From assembly GCF_964204645.1 (NCBI RefSeq), contig NC_134026.1, forward strand, positions 1,860,001 to 1,924,000: DNA of 64,000 bases. The letters run 5' to 3'. The translations under genes and the position numbers were made by a program. Origin of the DNA: Tubulanus polymorphus. Lineage: Eukaryota > Nemertea > Palaeonemertea > Tubulaniformes > Tubulanidae. Below, piece after piece: positions 460-61,779 of the stretch; the stretch's first letter is position 1, and each line of letters begins with the position of its first letter. The notes beneath the pieces were generated by a model. The model was not told where the DNA came from. It did not search any database and saw only the letters and a list, made by a program, of their open reading frames with translations.

Positions 460-3400
460 CTGTGCTCTACCTCTTCCCATGAGAAATCAGTTTTATCAAT
501 CATTTCTCGTAATTTAGCGCGGTTGCTGAAAAACAGTGCCAAATCCGTAGCCAGAATGCAGTGCTTGATATCGGACAGCACCTGAACAGACAATCAGAAC
601 AATATTATAGAATTATCAATTCTTTTCTGTCTGTTCATCAGTCAGAGGAATCAATGAATTATTTTACCTGTTTATATTCGTCTGATGTGAGATGTTTGAA
701 TATGTTGTGTCCGTCGTGCTGAAAACGTGAAAGAAAACTTACATCAATGAGAAAACAAAACTATATTCATAAATTTGAAAAGTAACTTAATGTCGAACGT
801 TCAAAAATCGGCTGAATTTGATTGGTAATAAGAAAAGCGATACTAACTTAAAAATTTCGAGAAATAAAGATTAATGTGCTTTGCGTAAAAACGAAATGAT
901 ATTCATAAAAGTATTTGACTATTACAGCGTCAGGCGGCGCACTTAAAAAAAAATGGAAAATGGCGATGAAATTTGTTTGTGGGAAAAATCAAATCTTTGA
1001 AATTAACATCGCAATTTTCATAAACAGAATTAGAATATACAACTGGAAATGAAAAGCAATTGGTAATAATCCCATAACGACAAGACTTCATCTTCATTTT
1101 AGTGTCAAAGCAATTCTTGTCAACGATTCCGTCATCGGAATCAGGATTTATTTTATCCACCCACGCAGACGTGATTTGCGTGATCTCAACCTATATGGTT
1201 ATCGAGAGGCAGGTGTCGAAATTCAGTACGCCCGATGAGGGCTCAAATACACATTTACTTAAGAACTTTATACACTTTTGGTTGAATTATTGTGGGATTT
1301 CATTCGAAATTCTAACGTATTTCAGAGAGAAGATGGAGGTGTTTGAAAATGAAAAAAAAATCATAAAATAAACGTGCGGTGTCGTAAATGAAACTGAATA
1401 TATTTCCCACATAATAATAAACTGGGAAGTGATCGTAACATTACAAAAATCTATCTTACTTGTAATATGTTAACAGTATAGTTAAAATGGTGATTCTCCA
1501 TGGGAGAGGAGGAATATATAGCGGCTAGGGGAGACGCACTTTTCACTATAAATGCATTACTTCTCCCACGATGGTCGACATCATGACATAGGCATGCAAT
1601 AAAGAACGCTATTTGCTGAAATAAGTTAGAATGACAAAGTGGTACAAGAGTGATATTACATACTATATTGTTGTTAGTGGAGTAGGGGGGTAGAAGGGCG
1701 TGGTGGTCTGTATCGGTGGATCTCAGGGGTGATGGTGCGCCGCCAGACATATTCCCAGCAAAAAGACATCAAAAATAGATATTTTGATATCCGTATACCA
1801 GCTAGTTATTCGTGGGTTGTTGACTGACTACCTGTAGAATAGTGACAGTTTGGTTGAAATGATGATGTTCCATGGTCGAAGTAGAATAAATTGCGGCGAG
1901 AGGAGAGGCACTTTTCACCATGAACGCATTTGTCTTTCCTCTATGGTCAAGGTCATGGCAAAGACATGCAACAAATAATGCTAGGCACTGCAAGATAATT
2001 AGATTAACCATCAAACAACGTTAACGTCCACCAACTTTGAATAAAAGAACTATTTCTTTACGCAATGCTCTCGATCATCGAGAAACCTATCTGAAAAAAA
2101 ACATCATCGAAAAAGAATCAATTTCCTTTTGACCTTTGCGACCGATAAAAACGCGATCATTTTCACGATGGAAATTTCCTGTACGTACAGACTTCTTTTC
2201 ACTGACATGTTTACCCTTAATGACGTCACGGAGCAGCTACCCATTCAGTGGACTCGTGTATAATGTAGAACTAAGAATGAATTTCTATGAAATGAAGTCG
2301 TTCGTATGAAATACTCGATAGTTCGTGGTTCTCGTGTTTTCCATATCGGTTTTCGATAGCGAATACGATACGAACGCAGTGTTTGACCGTTAATTCGTGA
2401 CAATTCCGAGAACCTTCGGATATTTACGTTAAAAATGAACGAAGTAACGCGCACGTACCTCTAATGGAGTAAATAAATTTGTCGTTGTTTTGATAACGGT
2501 ATACATGGCATGCGCCACCGAGAAAGCATGCGCCCAATTATGATAGGGTACATTCCGATAGTTCTTCCGTACTGTAAGTGTGAACTTCATCAAACATTCC
2601 TTGTCGAATCTACGAGAAAGATTTAGAGTAATCAATGAAACTGGTATCCGTGAAAACGTCAGTTTTAGTTCCAACGTGAAAATTTCTTATTCCATGCAAA
2701 ATTCCACGTAACTGCAAAATAATATCATCAAGTAAAACAAGATTATATTTTCTTTCCGAACGAATTCAGTTGACTTAAGATGGGAATATTTCTTATCGAA
2801 ATATCGATAGCACTGAAAATCATAACCCTTAATTTATCTTTCATGCTTTTTATACGAACAGATTAATGGTGCGTAAAACGTATTAAGACTCAGTGAAAAC
2901 ACAGGAAAACTCGACACGATCTGAGACTAATATTTAACATCGAACTATTTCGAATAAACAATCGTTCACTACAAGAATGTGTCTGAAAATGCGCATATGT
3001 ATATAATTTTTTGTTGTATTTCAGTTTGAAAAAAATCACAGCAAAAAAACAAGAAATCAAAACCGATACCATATGATGATATACGTATATATAAATGTGT
3101 CAAAGAATATATCATGAACTCTACGGAAGGATCGAGGTTAGGTTGAAATTCAACGAGTCGATAAAGTTGAAATCTACTATAAATGTTAGGTGTGGACTGC
3201 ATTTATCTCATCAAACCATTGAGATATAGGATTATGCTCTGGATTTCTCGAAGGACGAATTGAAAATCTTCATCTTCGTCATAGAATGATAGAAAGAAAA
3301 TCAGAATTAGAAATACCTCCACCGAAATTAATTGTGAAATAAATGTTAGACGATTGGTAAAATTTCTGAACAATTGGATGACATACTGAGATGTATATAC

Positions 3401-6400
3401 ATACAATCCCCTAGATTTGTACGAACTACACGCATCGCTCTTCCTATTTTATCAAATAGAATAATTCGATTCAGGTTTCTCCAAATCACTAAAATCTATA
3501 TCTACAAGCAACAGATAAAAAAAACGCCGGGAAAATATTTGAAAGAAAAAAACCTCAGCCACCGTGTTATGAGAAATACTGTTAGCAGTCGACACAGAAC
3601 TAAAGTAACCTCACCTCTTGTCAATAGGGAGCGATTCAAATTGCTCCGCTCTTCGTTTTGAAGCACTTAGAATGAAATAAAAACGGTCATGAGAATCGAT
3701 GTAAATCCCGAATAAAGAAATGCTCGAGAGCCCGAAATAAATCACATAGAAAAATATTCAACAAAACATTAGGCAGAAGAGAACGTTCATAAAATGTGTA
3801 TCTTTTTTAGATATGATATGATATCCTACAATGAAATGAGAAAGAAGCAGTCCACACCTCTGGCTTTCTAGAAATAAATTTCGGATAATCATTATAAAAA
3901 GGTTAAGATGATATAGAAAGTCCGGTGTATATAAGGCTATATACCTTGTATCTGTATCTTTTAAACTAATGCTAAAAGAGAGAAAATGTCCAATCGTGTT
4001 AATTGGTTTTCTGTGTTATTCCACTGAAATCCATCGGAAACATGATCGTGACAGTAATTATTAGCTATATCATCTTCTACAGTTGCTTACGTAGGTTATT
4101 TCAGGAAATTATTTATTTCAATGGAGCAGCTTTTTACTCGGGTTACTATCGTAAATCACTAGTAATACGATAGGCTTTGTTGTCGTAACGGGAATTAACT
4201 AATGACAAATTTATTTTTACCTTTGTAACTTGAACAAATCTTCAAACATATGAATAACGACAAGCGGCTTATCGTCACCGTCTATGGACCACGGCGAAAA
4301 TTCATATCTGCAAACATGAAATACGAGTACAGTTGAAGTTGAATACGCAATATTCATTATATTAAGACATTAGTGTATTTTGAATATCTTACTCTTGTAG
4401 ATGTACTATCGATGACGGCAAATCTCTTGTTTTTAATTTTTCCAACTCGTCCTCCGAACACTGGCTGTGATACGACAGAACCTCCAACGCTACTTTATAT
4501 TTCTGTTCCGATCGCCGAATCTTTTCGTACAGCTATGAAATACAAAATCGAACACTCGTCGTACCGAACGCCCAACTCGCTATACGAGGGTTTTTATCAG
4601 ATTTATTCGGTTACCTTGGCATGATGCAGCGCTAGTCCACAATAAATGGCAAACGTTTCGAACGAATCTTCATCAGCGATCGTAAATTTACCGTTTAGTT
4701 TATTCACCATTTGAACGACGCCAATTATACTGTAACGATAGATCAACATCCATACAGTAGCAGTTTAATCGTGAGTAACAGGGGCCAGTTGCATAGTCGT
4801 GACTTAAGTCCAAAAGTGGTCACAAATCTTTAGACTGGTCTTAAGTTGTTAGATTGGCTATAGAACTAATTTGGTCTTAGACTGGTCTTAAGTCTAAGCC
4901 ATGACTGCGCAACCGGCCCCTGAAGTCGATTTTCAATTTTCAATCAGAAGAATTAGAAATATTTTTACCTTCCACGTATGTATATAGGCATACAAAGTAT
5001 CGTATTTGTTGTGTAACCAGTCTGAAGATCGACATCTCTGAAATGACCAGATATCATTGTCACCATATTCCAGGGACAAGCAAAGATACACGCTCACATA
5101 CGGTAGATAATCTTCAATTAAACCCCGATTACCGGTTAAATCTTCCATTAGTCCCCTCGTCTTACCGGTTAAATCTTTCGTCTTGATAAGCATCGGGAAT
5201 ATTCAACGTTTGTCCAGTCGAAGCTACGTGACCGGCGATACCTTTATCAATCGGAAATCTGAATTAGATATTGGCAATCAATTAGTTAAACTATATCATC
5301 ATCCTTTATTAGAATTGATAACTGTATATTATCTTTAAAGGAATTTTTGATTTAATCATTTCAAATGCAAACACCAATGAATTTCCTCTTAAAGAGAAAT
5401 TGATGAAATATAATGCATTATTGCTATCGAGGATATTGGAGTTGAAGATGATCTTTGTCGTAATGAGCTTCGGTAATAATTGTCACTCGTCGCCGCTAAG
5501 CAGACTTCAGGCAACTCTTCATTATACATGGGCGATCTATGAAATTTGTTTGATATCTCTTATCAAATATTGATGCGGCGGTAATAATTTCCGTGAATCG
5601 ACTGTAGTGTGCAATCGGTGCAATTAACGCGCACTGAATGCGAATCGGAGAGTTTTCCAGGAGGCATGGATGACGATGATTTCTGTACAAACATAGTTAT
5701 AGAAATGACAGCGAAATTACGAAAGTAACATAAACCAGTGCATACAGAGTACGAAGAGAGATAGCTTTAGGTAAAGGGATCCACCGTTCCAGAGTAAATG
5801 GAGTTGAATAATATATGGTTTCGAATTGGTTTCAGGATCCGAGAATGAAATTTCTATCGAATTTAGTTATTAGTTTCATTCTACGGATTTGCGAGGTTGA
5901 TTTGACAGGGATAGATTATTCATTATATATCGAAAGAATTAGCGAACACAAACACACGTAAAGAGAATCAAAATAGATTACAAAATTAAATCCAGCAATA
6001 ACTGTACACTTGATCAAAAATACATGTATTTTTGACTAGATAGATAAAGAGGGATAGAGCTTTCACATTGACGCTAATGAGAGATAATGCAAACAGAACA
6101 AGTGTTCAGTATAGTCTGCAACCTGTCAAAACGTGGGAAGGAGTCTGCGAAAGAATTTTAAGTAATCAAATATTAATGAACGTATAATATTCATGAAAGC
6201 CAAATATACGAACACAACAGTGCTTAACACGAGCAGTCATTGTGATTTTGATACCGTTATAACTGAGTACACCAGCACAATATAAACTTCTAACGGACCA
6301 TGAATACAGTGGCAAGTGGCTTGGTTTTGGGCATGAGGCCAAAACAGATTAGAAAAGCGATCGTGAAACAGCCCCTAAAAAGCTTAGTGCAAGCAATGCG

Positions 6401-9400
6401 ATTTAGCGTGCTATAATACGTGCAAGTCACCATAAACCATGAGTTAAATTTTCAGCAGTCAATTAAATACATCAGCAATTCACGTGTGATTGAAGCTGTT
6501 CTATTGAATACAAGCCAAATTGATTACGTGCAAACTTTCAAACCTGATTTCTTTGCCACAGTCTGGTATGAAATCAGTATCATCTATACTACCAGTATCA
6601 AAGATCCTGGCGTATAATTCCATGGTATTTATGTCAACCAGAAACAAGGATGCCCGGTCAGCATGTACTAATGTTTTAGCGTAATTCTGTGAAAAAGAGA
6701 ACACACCACAATCCACATTTAAAATGTCATGCAACATGCAACGTACACCGCAAAACCGTTGTGATGATCGGCCGTTTTGCCGATCAATTTCTGGGATTTT
6801 CATCCCCACAAATTTCAAATACGTATTGGAAAAGGTTTCGTGATTTTTTGCTGATGGACAAAACCAAGTTTCATTGAAAAATGAATTATTGGCCCAAAGT
6901 TGGAAATGAAGAAAAAGCATGCTGAATTTCTCGGCGTTTCGATGACTCTTTTGACGAACGCTTTTTAATTAGCGACTCAGCAAATCGACATCTTATGCAT
7001 AAGACATGGGCAATAATCGATAGGATTTTGAAAACAAATCCATCGAGGCCCTAATCAGTCGCCAAGGCAACATGGTTCACGTTGGGCATCATCATCAATA
7101 TTGGTCAACGCAGCAGTCAATAAACGAGTTCTTTTCTCAATTCAGTGATTAATATGCCGCGGTCATATTGAGACCTGAGCAATATCTCCATTAGGCTTTC
7201 CATAAATCTCAATTCAACCTGTCTGATGAGACACTCATTAAATATATATATGATTCTACTGCCGATACCCCAGCCCCGCGACGACAATGACCTTGACACC
7301 CCCAACGAACGTAATAAGTAGATTGTAATCAAGTAGACGCAACTAATTTGTTTCTTCGTGCAAAACAATTCACCAAAAAAGCATTTTGTAAACAGCAAGC
7401 AAGGGTGCATGCAGCTTGCTCCGTCACACAATGCCGCCTTAAACGCAGTGAAAACCTGGAATTCACACGTAGAGACAGTTGGGTTGAAACACTGAACGGA
7501 TCATCGTTAGAATTCCTCGATATTAGCGAGACGAAAAATGAATCGAAATTTTAGATTCTAACCCTCAAAAGAACAGCAGAGGCGTGATCACTTCTACTTT
7601 TCTACTTCCTAGCGGTAATTCTCTTGTAGTGTGTGATTTCAACAGAAAAGTCTCTACGCTAAGGTAACATTGAACGAGAATTTCTACCTTATCTCTTTGT
7701 GTTGGCTATCAGCAGGCTGAGCACCCAACCCGTTACCAACATCAAATATTCTCGCATATAACTCCCTAGATACGTTGTCTAGTAGGAATAAAGATGCTCT
7801 ATCTGCGTTCACCAACTTTTGAGCATAGTTCTGTAGCATTGGGCAGAAATCAATCATAAATTTACAATGATATTTAATGGCAACCCTTATAAATTTTTGA
7901 AAACATAATATATATAATATATAATATATGATCTGAATTGGCTTCGTACTATTTTGAAGTCAAACTTATTATCGTATTTTTCAATTACATCTTTTCCGAA
8001 TTTTCAATTCAATTTTCTTCTGACGAAATATATGCGACTTACCATAATCTTCATGATCACCGTGTCCATGCTGACAATATCTTGAAAGATCGACCTAGAA
8101 TTAAATGAAAAATTAGAAAGACGCGGCAAAACCTATCGCGCATAATGATAACAGTAATTACTCTTCGTAAAGCAAGGAATAATGACATGATGTTATTAGT
8201 CACGAATGTCGTTACAAAGACAAGCTGCATGCACATAGAACTTATTTTTGCTTAGAAATATATCGATAAGACCGAAGCGTTATTTCTTACTTTGTCACCG
8301 CTAATAGGAAATCATTGAGTTTCCGTTGTTTCGTCATGCTGTGATACATCTACAAAAAATAAACATTGACAAACGTACATTACATTCGTAATGTTCATCG
8401 CAATAACGCATTGACAGAAATATCATAGTTGCATCGGTGATAGAACTACTTTATTAACGATTTTCATTTTGATATCAATTTCTTTCAAGACGCGTAAAAA
8501 AATGAATACTGAAAAGGCACTGAATTTTACAAATTGACAAATTAGACAATATGTCATGATTTCAACAGTATTTTTTGATTTGAGAAATATAGCATCAATC
8601 AATAAGGAAGCTACAATCGAGGGCCAGATACCAGTAAAAGATTATCTTTATTACACGAATTTATATATAATTCATAAAAATTTGAATTAGAATTCCTGAA
8701 AAGAAATTATGACGGAAATTTCTCTGACTTTACCAAAGCATTACCAACGGCATTACATACAATGAATGTAGCAGACATGCGATAATTTATCTAGGCTACT
8801 AAATTCAACGTTACAAGAAAGAGTTGTTAATAAAACAATAGTGCACCGAGAAAAGTCATTGATTGAAAAGATTAGATGTTTTCTTTTTTTTGTTAGAGTT
8901 TACTATAATAGTTAGACATCAGCGTTTACTTAGTTCCAAAGTTTTCATCGTTAATTGGGTGAAATATGAATGTAAGCGATGGGAGGTTATGTGCACTTCA
9001 TGGACTGTGTGAAAATCATATATCTAAGCATTATATCACTAAGGACGAACCTCATTGTCCATATAATTCTGAAAGTGCCAGCAGCAGGAAAGGCAAAATA
9101 ACAGGGAACTTATTAAAAATCCCAACTTATATCCCAAGTAAAATGAGCAAAAATGTAGAAATCAACTTCGATAACCCATTATGAAAAATTGATAGTCAAT
9201 GAGAGTTGGTTTATGTGGCTCTTATCCCGAGATGACAAGATCTTTTACTCTATAATAAACCCCTCGTACTAAACTATAACTACTGTAACAATGTGCAGTG
9301 TAGTAATCATTACTAAGATATGTTCTCCGTTGATTTCCATCGGAGAAAAATAAGAAGTCACAATATCGTACACAGAAATAGATTGCCCGATTCGGAATTC

Positions 9401-12400
9401 TAAGGTGGCAATAGAAGAAGAAGTTGTACACATTGCTAACACAAGATACGAAAGAAGCATGCAATAGTATACCTCCGCTAAATGAACCGTTATACTCCCC
9501 CATATCAGAAGGCTGCTGCATATCTGGTCAGTAAGAAACATAAATATACAAGCAAGCAATTAGTGTCCAAACACTTGAGAGTATGATGTATGATGCAGAA
9601 AAAAAAGAAGCTGTCTCGGGACCATGTCAACCGATTTCAATCACTTAGATTTAAAAAAAAATCATCCATTTTGGGAAAATTTGGTATGCAGGAAATAATA
9701 AATTGAGAGACCATAAAACCGAGCGAATTCAAAATTGCCCCAACACACAAAAATCTGATTCCAAAATGCCACGTCAACATAGAACATAAAAAGGATATTA
9801 CTCCCAGCAGAAAAAAGCGCATAATGTCAACATTGAATTGCGGTTCAGCACAATTTCGACGCGTTCAATGCGAGCAGGTTTGCTTAGAGACAGGTTTCTA
9901 GATTTCTCCTCACAACGACATGTTGAATTATACGGGTTGAATTGAGTTCTGCATACAAAATACCGTTGAATTTTTTGAAACTTATTCCACCAGAAATTCA
10001 ATTGTTGAATTGAAATTGATTGTTTATATCCAGATCATCCAGGAGACAGCTTCATTTTTGCATTCTAGTGAGGATCGAAATTGTGCACTGAATTAATGTA
10101 TTCAGAGTAAGAGGGAATCCACGCCTGGTTGACTAGGGATTAAGCACCGGTCTCCACCAATCCCTGACTGACCATAGATTTTTTTACCTCGGCACACGAC
10201 ACTGCTACATTTCCCCAAACAAGATAACTGCTGGTAATCTAGAAACAAATAAGTTTTATCAATGCTATCTAATGTATATTACTGACAGTCAAAACCACGG
10301 ACAATATTGTTCAACCTCGCTCAATTAATCTGTAATGATATTATTACCTTTCACACTGCATTCGCTTTAAAAAAAAGTGTTTATTGGAATATATTCCTGT
10401 TGAATAACTATGAACTAACCAACAGTTTTATTTTTCCATCCGTGGCATTAACTATGAACTCGAGAATGACAGGTGAACGAATGCAGGGTAAAATGTAGAA
10501 TTAATTCGTTGTTAATGGTAAAAATAATAAATTTGATAAAAAATAGACATATTACAAACAGCATTATATTTCATTGCAAGCCCAAAGTTGTAATAGTTTG
10601 TGATAGGCTGATAGCCTGGCAAAAATGAGAGACAGCCATTTTTTACTTGATCGAAGGAAATTCATCCACGAAACCATTAAAATGATACCATTAGAGACCG
10701 CGAGTTTATTTTATCCGAAGTTATCAATCATTTTCACCGCAAGCCAATCAGACCTATTTTGTAATATAGGATATAAAGGGATCCCGGACACCGGCTGAGA
10801 GTGTGATGTGTGGGGTGATTGAACGTTGCAGCATTGCAATTTTTACCTCTTCACATTTTAAAGCTAAATGACTCCATAATAAATGACTGGCTGCCACCTA
10901 CAGATAAATTCATCAATTTCTAAAAGAAATTTTCTCCCAGAAAAATTTACGGTTGCAAATAAATGCACTCTTTAACGTCATCGGTTTATTAATTTTTCGT
11001 GTGAATAAAGAAAACATCACGAAATTTTAACCATAGGATCAGTTTTATCGGAGGTGGAATGATTCAGAACAAATATCTATAAATATATATACATGTCGAA
11101 AAATTATAGGGTCAGTGTGAAAGATGCTAAATAAATGTGAATCGCTCGAGAAGATGTTTCAAACAATTATGCGAATCGGTGGAATGTTTGTTTTCATCAT
11201 GGTATTTATACCCGGGGTAAAATGAATGCGACCTTTTGTACGTGACGTTTTATATCATTGGTTATTTGTCTCGAATGATGAGTGGCGCGCGCCGGACGTG
11301 ATTGCCATTAGGCAAACGATCAACCAATTACTGCAATTTACTGAATTTAATTCTACGCGAATTCCAAGCCATCAGGTTTATTTTTGAAAAAACGAAACCA
11401 ACTCGTCTGTGTATAAGATGTGCATCGTGCCGACCAAAACGGCGATGAAAATGCTCAAGTTCACGTAATGATTAATAGTTATAATGTAAACATTCATTGT
11501 TTGTAGACCCGGCAATACACGAAAATAAATATGGCTATTAAAGACAACAGGCATTTTAGATTGCGGTATCCATTGCATTCATATAATACGGCTGTAGCCC
11601 GACTACACTGAAATTGCCTGTTTGTAGGAAATGGCTGAAGAAAATATTATATTTGATATCAAATATCAAGGACGTGAGGACCGACCTCCCTGCAAATAAC
11701 AATCATTCGGATAAATCTCATAAAACGGTCCACAGCGACGAAGCGTTGGTAAATTCGTAAATTCGAATTTTTTTTGTTCGAGCTAAATCTGAATTTCCTA
11801 CCTCTTCATCTTCTTCGGCAAATGCAGCGGTTCCGACGTTTCTGTACAGTTCTACCACACCTGATTTATAACGAATATAATTCAATATAGAACAAATACA
11901 ATTCAATTTCGGGGTTTGACATATATTGCTGCATACAAGAAAAGATATAGAAAAGTTTTTAAATTTTTCAATATTTATCGATGTGAATTTCATGTTTTTA
12001 AAAGCTCACCAACGACTTGTCCATTAGACTGAGTAATTGGTTGCGCTAATACTGTTTGTGCATGGTCACCCCCGATACCAATCCCTTCTGGAAATCTTTC
12101 ATCCTGAAATATCACACGAACTCATGCAGTCAAATAACTATAAATACCACGGATGATACTATATTTAAAATAAATGATAAATGGTCTGTGCTCATATTTC
12201 ACTAATGATAAGTCAGTCACTCACTCCTAGTATTTCACTGGTGCGTATAGTCTCTTTAGTCGTAGCTACGTAAGCCGACAGAGTCGTTCCTTTTCCTAGT
12301 TTTCTCGAAGAAACGGCACCACTGAAATTAGGTTGGTTCTTCTGATTAGATATAGGATACGCAGTAACTAACTAATACTTGAGGTATTAATGATGTAGTG

Positions 12401-59724: not shown

Positions 59725-60979
59725 GATCCCTTGTATAGAGGATAGTCATGGAGAGCAGGTTGAACCCCCTGTATAGAGAACAGTCAGAAAAGGGAAGTTA
59801 ATTCCTGTATAGAGGGCAGTCATAGAAGGGAAGTTCATTCCTGTATAGAGGACAGTCAGAGAAGGGATGTTAATTCCTGTATAGAGGACAGTCAGAGAAG
59901 GGAAGTTCATTCCTGTATAGAGGGCAGTCAGAGAAGGGAAATTAATTCCTGTATAGAGGGCAGTCATAGAAGGGAAGTTCATTCCTGTATAGAGGATAGT
60001 CATGGAGAGTAGGTTGAACCCCCTGTATAGAGAACAGTCAGAAAAGGGAAGTTAATTCCTGTATAGAGGGCAGTCATAGAAGGGAAGTTCATTCCTGTAT
60101 AGAGGACAGTCAGAGAAGGGATGTTAATTCCTGTATAGAGGACAGTCAGAGAAGGGAAATTAATTCCTGTATAGAGGACAGTCAGAGAAGGGAAATTAAT
60201 TCCTGTATAGAGGGAAGTCAGAGAAGGGAAATTAATTCCTGTATAGAGGGAAGTCAGAGAAGGGAAATTAATTCCTGTATAGAGGACAGTCAGAGAAGGG
60301 AAGTTAATTCCTGTATAGAGGACAGTCAGAGAGGGGAAGTTAATTCCTGTATAGAGGGCAGTCAGAGAGGGGAAGTTAATTCCTGTATAGAGGACAGTCA
60401 GAGAAGGGAAGTTAATTCCTGTATAGAGGGCAGTCAGAGAGGGGAAGTTAATTCCTGTATAGAGGACAGTCAGAGAAGGGAAGTTAATTCCTGTATAGAG
60501 GGCAGTCAGAGAGGGGAAGTTAATTCCTGTATAGAGGACAGTCAGAGAGGGGAAGTTAATTCCTGTATAGAGGGCAGTCAGAGAGGGGAAGTTAATTCCT
60601 GTATAGAGGACAGTCAGAGAAGGGAAGTTAATTCCTGTATAGAGGGCAGTCAGAGAGGGGAAGTTAATTCCTGTATAGAGGACAGTCAGAGAAGGGAAGT
60701 TAATTCCTGTATAGAGGGCAATCAGAGAGGGGAAGTTAATTCCTGTATAGAGGACAGTCAGAGAGGGGAAGTTAATTCCTGTATAGAGGGCAGTCAGAGA
60801 GGGGAAATTAATTCCTGTATAGAGGACAGTCATAGAAGGGAAGTTCATTCCTGTATAGAGGACAGTCAGAGAGGGGAAATTAATTCCTGTATAGAGGACG
60901 GTCAAGAGAAGGAAGTTCATTCCTGTATAGAGGACAGTCAGAGAAGGAAGTTCATTCCTGTATAGAGGACAGTCAGAGG
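59725..60979. repeat. 36 bp minisatellite, about 35 copies
   Basis: Unit approximately TTAATTCCTGTATAGAGG + CAGTCAGAGAAGGGAAG. Because 36 is a multiple of three, the minus strand stays open for over 1 kb as a 12-residue repeat (INFPSLTVLYTG). Between about 60,310 and 60,820 units alternate as 72 bp dimers (AGAAGGG / AGAGGGG). An approximately 254 bp block is duplicated near 59,741 and 59,995. Confidence 0.92.
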
Positions 60980-61779
60980 TTGGTCGCATCCAACAAAAAC
61001 CAGCATCATCATCATCATCATCATCAATAGCCAGCAAACATTTCAGTAATATTCCAGTTATTGAACAGTTAGTGTTCAGATTATTACCGTTACAGTTTTT
61101 CACTTATTTCCTAAAGATTCAACCAAATTCATTTTATAAAAGTTACCGGCGTCAAACCTATCGCATTCAAGAAGAAACTATTATCTTAAAAACTATTTTA
61201 TCTGAATCTTACATCAACTATTAATTATCTAAAAATTGTTTTATCCACATCTTAACAACTCTTGAATATCTAAAAAAAATCTGCGTTGTTAAACATTATT
61301 GAATATCACGGAACAAATTTTATGTATATCATATTTTAAATTGTTTTATTTGTACTTATTTTAAACTATTTTAATCTTAAATAATTTCAAACCATTTTAT
61401 ATTTTTTAAGAACTAGATTATATTCGTTTTTAAAAACTAACCTACAGATCAATTTGATGAGTTATTTATCTTATATTTGACTATATCATATACTGGAACC
61501 CAAGATATTTGAAACGGATAACTGAAGGTCCAGGTTTTATCACTGAATACTCTTTGACACAATTACGTGGTCCACAACACAGATACAAATAGTGGTTATA
61601 TAAAAGGCCCATATATTATAATGCACGCACGAAGAGCTTGTACTCATAGTTCATATGAAATGTGATTGAGAACTTCTCATACTTTATTTAATCTTCTTTT
61701 CTTGATTTTTCTATTTTGTTTTAAAGATATTTTCAGTTTGTCTGTGAGTTTATTGTATTCACTTTTTGATTTCAGTTTA
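60980..61779. other. No supported gene; AT-rich flank of the minisatellite
   Basis: Runs of TTTTAAA-type sequence and a short ATC triplet tract at about 61,004-61,026. No coding potential seen. Confidence 0.4.

Follow-up and report, generated by a model that had tools for sequence, protein, structure and literature searches.

A PDE10-like phosphodiesterase gene of the nemertean Tubulanus polymorphus with four clusters of putative mutually exclusive exons

The gene and its four exon clusters

The window analysed here, a 64,000-nucleotide stretch of the Tubulanus polymorphus genome (NC_134026.1, positions 1,860,001 to 1,924,000), carries on its minus strand one gene encoding GAF domains and a PDEase_I domain, in which four exon positions are occupied by two or three tandem copies of the exon. 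Coordinates are window positions (1 = C2:1860001, negative values lying to the left of the window); the prefixes C2: and C1: are contig labels, the former standing for NC_134026.1, and bare C1 to C4 denote exon clusters. The genome measures 267.8 Mb. The gene model, built with a further 16 kb of sequence to the left of the window, spans 13308 to -2019 in 25 exon positions, with GT/AG at each border and a single continuous frame of 766 residues from exon 13308 to a stop at C2:1857981. The PDEase_I match (E = 1.8e-36) and the presence of the HD...D metal ligands identify the predicted product as a class I cyclic nucleotide phosphodiesterase.

Nine exon copies make up the four clusters (Table 1), and within each cluster the copies are equal in length, share the same phase, keep an open frame and have AG/GT borders. 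A preliminary description of the window had reported three clusters with seven copies between 1460 and 10897, with lengths of 51 bp (three copies), 143 bp (two) and 156 bp (two); these limits, lengths, phases, frames and borders proved exact on the minus strand, and its proposal of a single gene with independent tandem exon duplications is supported. The three clusters are correct, but the 12 protein cores counted from them are too few: a fourth cluster, C4 (112 bp, two copies), lies outside the window, 143 to 908 bases left of its edge. Four clusters rather than three give 24 cores (3x2x2x2) rather than 12, and all 24 one-copy-per-cluster combinations read as an open frame to the stop; if two candidate first exons are counted too, there are 48 versions. 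A fifth duplicated exon was not found when every exon was scanned against the gene region from -6000 to 24000, and a genome-wide PDEase_I scan found no other locus with two open matches to one profile segment.

The copies resemble one another far more than they resemble anything else nearby. Protein scores of copy against copy, set against the highest-scoring other match within the 30 kb of the gene region, were 106 versus 11-16 for C2 and 217 versus 9 for C3; C1b/C1c scored 49 and C1a/C1b 46, versus at most 26 for other matches, and C1a/C1c (26 versus 22) was the only pair not distinct on its own.

Our data are consistent with a model, which on the genomic sequence we hold to be highly probable, where a PDE10-like gene carries four independently tandem-duplicated exons used as mutually exclusive alternatives, encoding 24 protein cores. 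Each transcript would take one copy per cluster, the use already considered in the preliminary description and the likeliest one; anatomical support that it did not list comes from frameshifts in C2 and C4, a candidate stem in C3 and long introns on the flanks of every alternative exon. Inclusion of both C2 copies leads to a stop at residue 357 of 845, inclusion of both C4 copies to a stop at residue 734 of 835, and transcripts with no copy of C2 or C4 are frameshifted too. The C2a+C2b or C4a+C4b products would be removed as frameshifted nonsense, probably by nonsense-mediated decay.

Candidate mechanisms of exon choice

Four means of keeping alternative exons mutually exclusive have been described: short introns, mixed spliceosomes, frameshift with decay, and RNA structure (PMC6071210). 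The introns between copies are 216-1001 nt long, longer than the short-intron mechanism allows, and all borders are GT-AG, which together make both the short-intron and the mixed-spliceosome mechanisms unlikely. Frameshift could serve C2 and C4, and a candidate intronic stem could serve C3; for C1 no such means was found. The 13 introns touching alternative exons measure 212-1285 nt (median 635), whereas 15 of the 16 constitutive introns fall within 80-239 nt (median 123; P = 5e-5), and such long introns round the alternative exons fit regulated splicing.

The candidate stem emerged from a helix search over 15 intron pairs, run with shuffles and with genomic controls of the same geometry. Its arms flank C3b, 14 of its 15 positions pair (-30.6 kcal/mol), a stability equalled by 0 of 1,500 shuffles, and the partition function of 1.8 kb of pre-mRNA puts the pairing probability at ~0.98. 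A dispersed-repeat origin of the arms was ruled out, the motif occurring only twice in the whole genome (268 Mb), both times here and in opposite orientation. Pairing between the introns flanking C3b would favour the skipping of C3b, leaving C3a. The stem ranks first among the 15 intron pairs tested, however, and the genomic controls matched it in 2/800 and 2/150 draws, so once corrected for this the predicted looping-out of C3b is suggestive only; in the same helix search, the stems for C1, C2 and C4 failed the controls, none being significant.

As in srp-type genes, where intronic sequences surrounding one alternative exon form a stem (PMC6071210), the predicted structure encloses a single exon. 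Neither arm has another strong partner in the upstream intron, the best alternatives reaching -16.4 and -12.2 kcal/mol, and the arrangement thus differs from the docking-selector systems of the Dscam kind (PMC6071210) in having one stem, round C3b, with no competing partner found. An imperfect 25-nt inverted repeat (76%) also flanks C2b, at 6320-6344 and 6844-6868; in the helix test that pair of introns did not reach significance.

Protein regulators such as Rbfox, which would act at TGCATG, might control exon choice rather than the C3 stem. This hexamer occurs seven times on the transcript strand in the introns touching alternative exons, versus 2.7 expected (P ~0.02, several motifs having been tried); three sites lie in the C2a-C2b intron, and positions next to alternative exons include 7413, 6740, 6733, 9463, 302 and 215. 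Yet the enrichment is weak and uncorrected, and the C3 introns, where the stem is predicted to pair with high probability, contain no TGCATG at all. We regard regulation of this kind as unlikely, while granting it more weight than the alternatives considered below.

Selection on the copies and other explanations

Protein identity between copies is 75% for C3, 56% for C2, 50% for C4 and 35, 53 and 24% for the three pairs within C1, at a nucleotide difference of 29-53% and with synonymous sites near or at saturation. The ratio of nonsynonymous to synonymous divergence (pN/pS) is 0.17 for C3 (95% limits 0.09-0.29), 0.33 for C2 (0.19-0.53) and 0.50 for C4 (0.30-0.82), the upper limits all being below 1. 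When neutral evolution was simulated at the observed divergence, the identity of C2, C3 and C4 was reached in 0 of 5,000 trials, and the frame stayed open in only 3-11% of trials (P 0.03-0.11 per copy). By these comparisons C2, C3 and C4 are under purifying selection. For C1 the signal is borderline, and we make no firm statement because 17 codons are too few.

Several observations weigh against strictly exclusive use of functional copies. The lengths of C1 (51) and C3 (156) are multiples of three, so that double inclusion or skipping keeps the frame and another means of exclusion is needed there. A simple position weight matrix scores the acceptor of C4a and the donors of C2b and C1c as weak. 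Finally, C1a and C1c, the least similar pair at 24% identity, have a pN/pS upper limit of 1.46.

The weak splice sites of some copies are what would be expected if each cluster held one functional copy and the rest were decaying, skipped relics of duplication. As groups, the alternative splice sites are not weaker than the constitutive ones. None of the nine copies has a stop, an indel or the loss of a splice site, and both copies conserve the residues of the active and ligand sites; the low pN/pS ratios of C2, C3 and C4, and the neutral simulation, also argue against decay. We therefore find this explanation improbable.

A slightly smaller probability attaches to the idea that the copies are cassette exons, jointly included or skipped and not strictly exclusive. 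The preserved frame in C1 and C3 would permit it, and the introns between copies are too long for steric exclusion, but in C2 (143) and C4 (112) the frame is lost whether both copies or neither are included. Judging from phosphodiesterase structures, a second C3 copy would duplicate the HD metal-site segment within a conserved catalytic fold, and a second C1 copy would lengthen the linker helix by 17 residues. An assembly or haplotype artefact, with allelic or mis-joined copies, is exceedingly improbable, because the nucleotide difference between copies excludes haplotype duplication, the repeat similarity of C3 ends at the exon edges with no other direct repeat joining the introns, and the gene reads through its exon positions in order.

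Where the alternative segments fall in the protein

The functional sites originally proposed for three of the clusters, namely the linker helix between GAF-A and GAF-B, the ligand domain of GAF-B and the metal site of the catalytic domain, are supported. C1 corresponds to the helix joining GAF-A to GAF-B (alignment to PDE2A, 3IBJ), which we take to act in dimerisation. C3 carries the HD metal motif, as CHDLDHRG or CHDVDHRG, with the HD kept in both copies. C4 carries the sequence TACDLC or TAADLC, with the metal-ligand Asp, retained in both copies, and the pocket helix. Two of the four swaps lie inside the catalytic domain.

C2 spans the GAF-B segment that includes human Phe300 (within CALF in 2ZMF; Phe300 was placed by counting back from Phe334). 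The cAMP pocket of PDE10A has this residue at its floor, and mutation of the residue abolishes stimulation by cAMP (PMC4833291); in humans the residue is mutated in chorea. Both C2a and C2b keep the Phe300 equivalent and differ in the next strand and loop. In C4 the Phe686 equivalent is kept in both copies, and the position of Tyr683, anchored on Phe686 (PMC5748027), is Phe in C4a, Met in C4b and Tyr in a sister gene of the same genome. In PDE10A, Tyr683 contributes to inhibitor selectivity.

Choice between copies would tune separate properties: the dimer/linker helix through C1, cyclic-nucleotide sensing by GAF-B through C2, the metal site through C3 and, through C4, a pocket helix in which human position 683 changes from Tyr to Phe or Met. 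Only tentatively do we propose the full combinatorial scheme, in which linker helix (three versions), GAF-B sensor (two), metal site (two) and pocket helix (two) would be chosen independently to give up to 24 enzymes differing in activation, substrate or inhibitor properties, with the C3 choice set by the intronic stem.

Relationship to PDE10A and a second gene

Among the matches listed, the gene is closest to PDE10A in both GAF-B (206 bits, versus 165 for PDE5) and the catalytic domain (312 bits, versus 262 for PDE5); these matches included no PDE11 chain. It shares with human and rodent PDE10A (PDB 2ZMF, 2Y0J) the combination of GAF-B and PDEase_I, with 57% identity in GAF-B and 51% in the catalytic core, as well as conserved metal ligands, the Gln/Phe clamp and candidate alternative N-termini. 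It differs in having Phe or Met in place of human Tyr683, and in that another gene of its own genome is closer to PDE10A. To our knowledge, no duplicated internal exons are known in PDE10A.

That second PDE10-like gene (C1:21,253,001-21,268,000; ~52% identity to the window gene) has the same exon boundaries and phases, so that the duplicated exons match a structure common to both genes; it has only one exon at all four positions (51, 146, 156 and 112 bp) and keeps the equivalents of Tyr683 and Val668. In a small, unrooted tree of GAF-B plus catalytic core it joins human PDE10A with 90% bootstrap, leaving the window gene outside; the catalytic core alone gives 81, and a PDE11A row in the catalytic tree serves as a lead only. 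This small unrooted tree did not recover the window gene as the PDE10A orthologue. The label 'PDE10-type' given in the preliminary description consequently holds by similarity and not by orthology: on the tree, the second gene appears to be the likelier PDE10A orthologue, and we call the window gene a PDE10-like paralogue, not a demonstrated orthologue. The single exons of the second gene would fit a single-copy ancestral state. In exon trees C2a joins C2b (68) and C3a joins C3b (75), and C4 is not resolved.

Comparison with known multi-cluster genes

More than one cluster of tandem alternative exons within a gene is already known, and the present gene would add a phosphodiesterase to such cases. 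The Mhc gene has five clusters yielding 480 mRNAs in Drosophila and nine clusters in Daphnia (PMC2257972), and Dscam1 has four (PMC8042237, PMC1397879). Insect Mhc1 is a close parallel, in that one gene has several independent tandem-exon clusters at separate functional sites of one enzyme (PMC2257972), and single-variant paralogues exist (mosquito Mhc3/Mhc4); it differs in encoding a motor protein with established splicing, in contrast to the predicted splicing of a cyclic-nucleotide phosphodiesterase here. Insect Dscam1 also has four tandem clusters, with RNA base pairing implicated in the choice, but its arrays, which yield 38,016 isoforms, are much larger, and it encodes a cell-surface recognition protein, in contrast to an enzyme with two or three copies per cluster.

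Among phosphodiesterases, alternative splicing is known chiefly at the N-termini, which target the enzyme; what would be interchangeable here is the sensor, the dimer/linker helix and even the active site. We know of no described phosphodiesterase of this multi-cluster kind, nor did the authors of the first description, and none with mutually exclusive duplicated exons was found in the literature searched, mostly freely accessible papers. The gene offers natural matched swaps at positions of human PDE10A (the Phe300 segment and the Tyr683 selectivity pocket), so the effect of each segment should be directly assayable, as well as a compact test of how independent clusters in one transcript may stay exclusive by different means.

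Features of the locus

Table 1. Exons of the PDE10-like gene and arms of the candidate C3 stem, in window coordinates
Feature	Position	Strand	Remarks
E1a, candidate first coding exon	15017-14894	-	MGQCMSSG..., ATG, donor GTAAGT; splices in frame to 13308; 808 aa open frame
E1b, alternative candidate first coding exon	14325-14235	-	MAGYDCDG..., ATG, donor GTTAGT; 797 aa open frame
Constitutive exons, N-terminal helix and GAF-A	13308-13141, 13015-12969, 12888-12777, 12689-12640, 12550-12519, 12321-12225, 12103-12010, 11860-11802	-	GT/AG, continuous frame
C1a	10897-10847	-	51 bp, 17 residues, GAF-A to GAF-B linker helix
C1b	10238-10188	-	51 bp, 17 residues
C1c	9523-9473	-	51 bp, 17 residues
Constitutive exons, start of GAF-B	8349-8291, 8094-8043	-	GT/AG, continuous frame
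C2a	7830-7688	-	143 bp, GAF-B helix and beta1/beta2 segment
C2b	6686-6544	-	143 bp, GAF-B
Constitutive exons, rest of GAF-B, linker and start of catalytic domain (YHNW)	5258-5166, 5037-4969, 4729-4615, 4532-4393, 4307-4221, 2609-2459	-	
C3a	1987-1832	-	156 bp, metal site, ...TMEHHHF...
Candidate stem, upstream arm	1749-1735	-	TGTCTGGCGGCGCAC, intron between C3a and C3b
C3b	1615-1460	-	156 bp, ...PMENHHF...
Candidate stem, downstream arm	942-928	-	GTGCGCCGCCTGACG, intron after C3b
Constitutive exons between C3 and window edge	718-668, 581-460	-	
C4a	-143 to -254 (C2:1859857-1859746)	-	112 bp, metal-ligand Asp and pocket helix
C4b	-797 to -908 (C2:1859203-1859092)	-	112 bp, metal-ligand Asp and pocket helix
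Last exons, left of window	-1544 to -1624, -1776 to -1864, -1947 to -2019	-	stop, C2:1857981

The two candidate first exons parallel the N-terminal variants of mammalian PDE10A; the MGQC start of E1a would suit N-terminal lipid modification, and E1b is Cys-rich. The sole long constitutive intron (4220-2610, 1611 nt) contains, at 3665-3615 on the minus strand, a 51-nt open stretch with AG/GT borders and a weak acceptor, in frame if included, which has no homologue among the gene's exons. Elsewhere in the window, an open reading frame at 60000-61103 (minus strand) is built from many repeats of one peptide (SLTVLYTGINFP) and is minisatellite-like.

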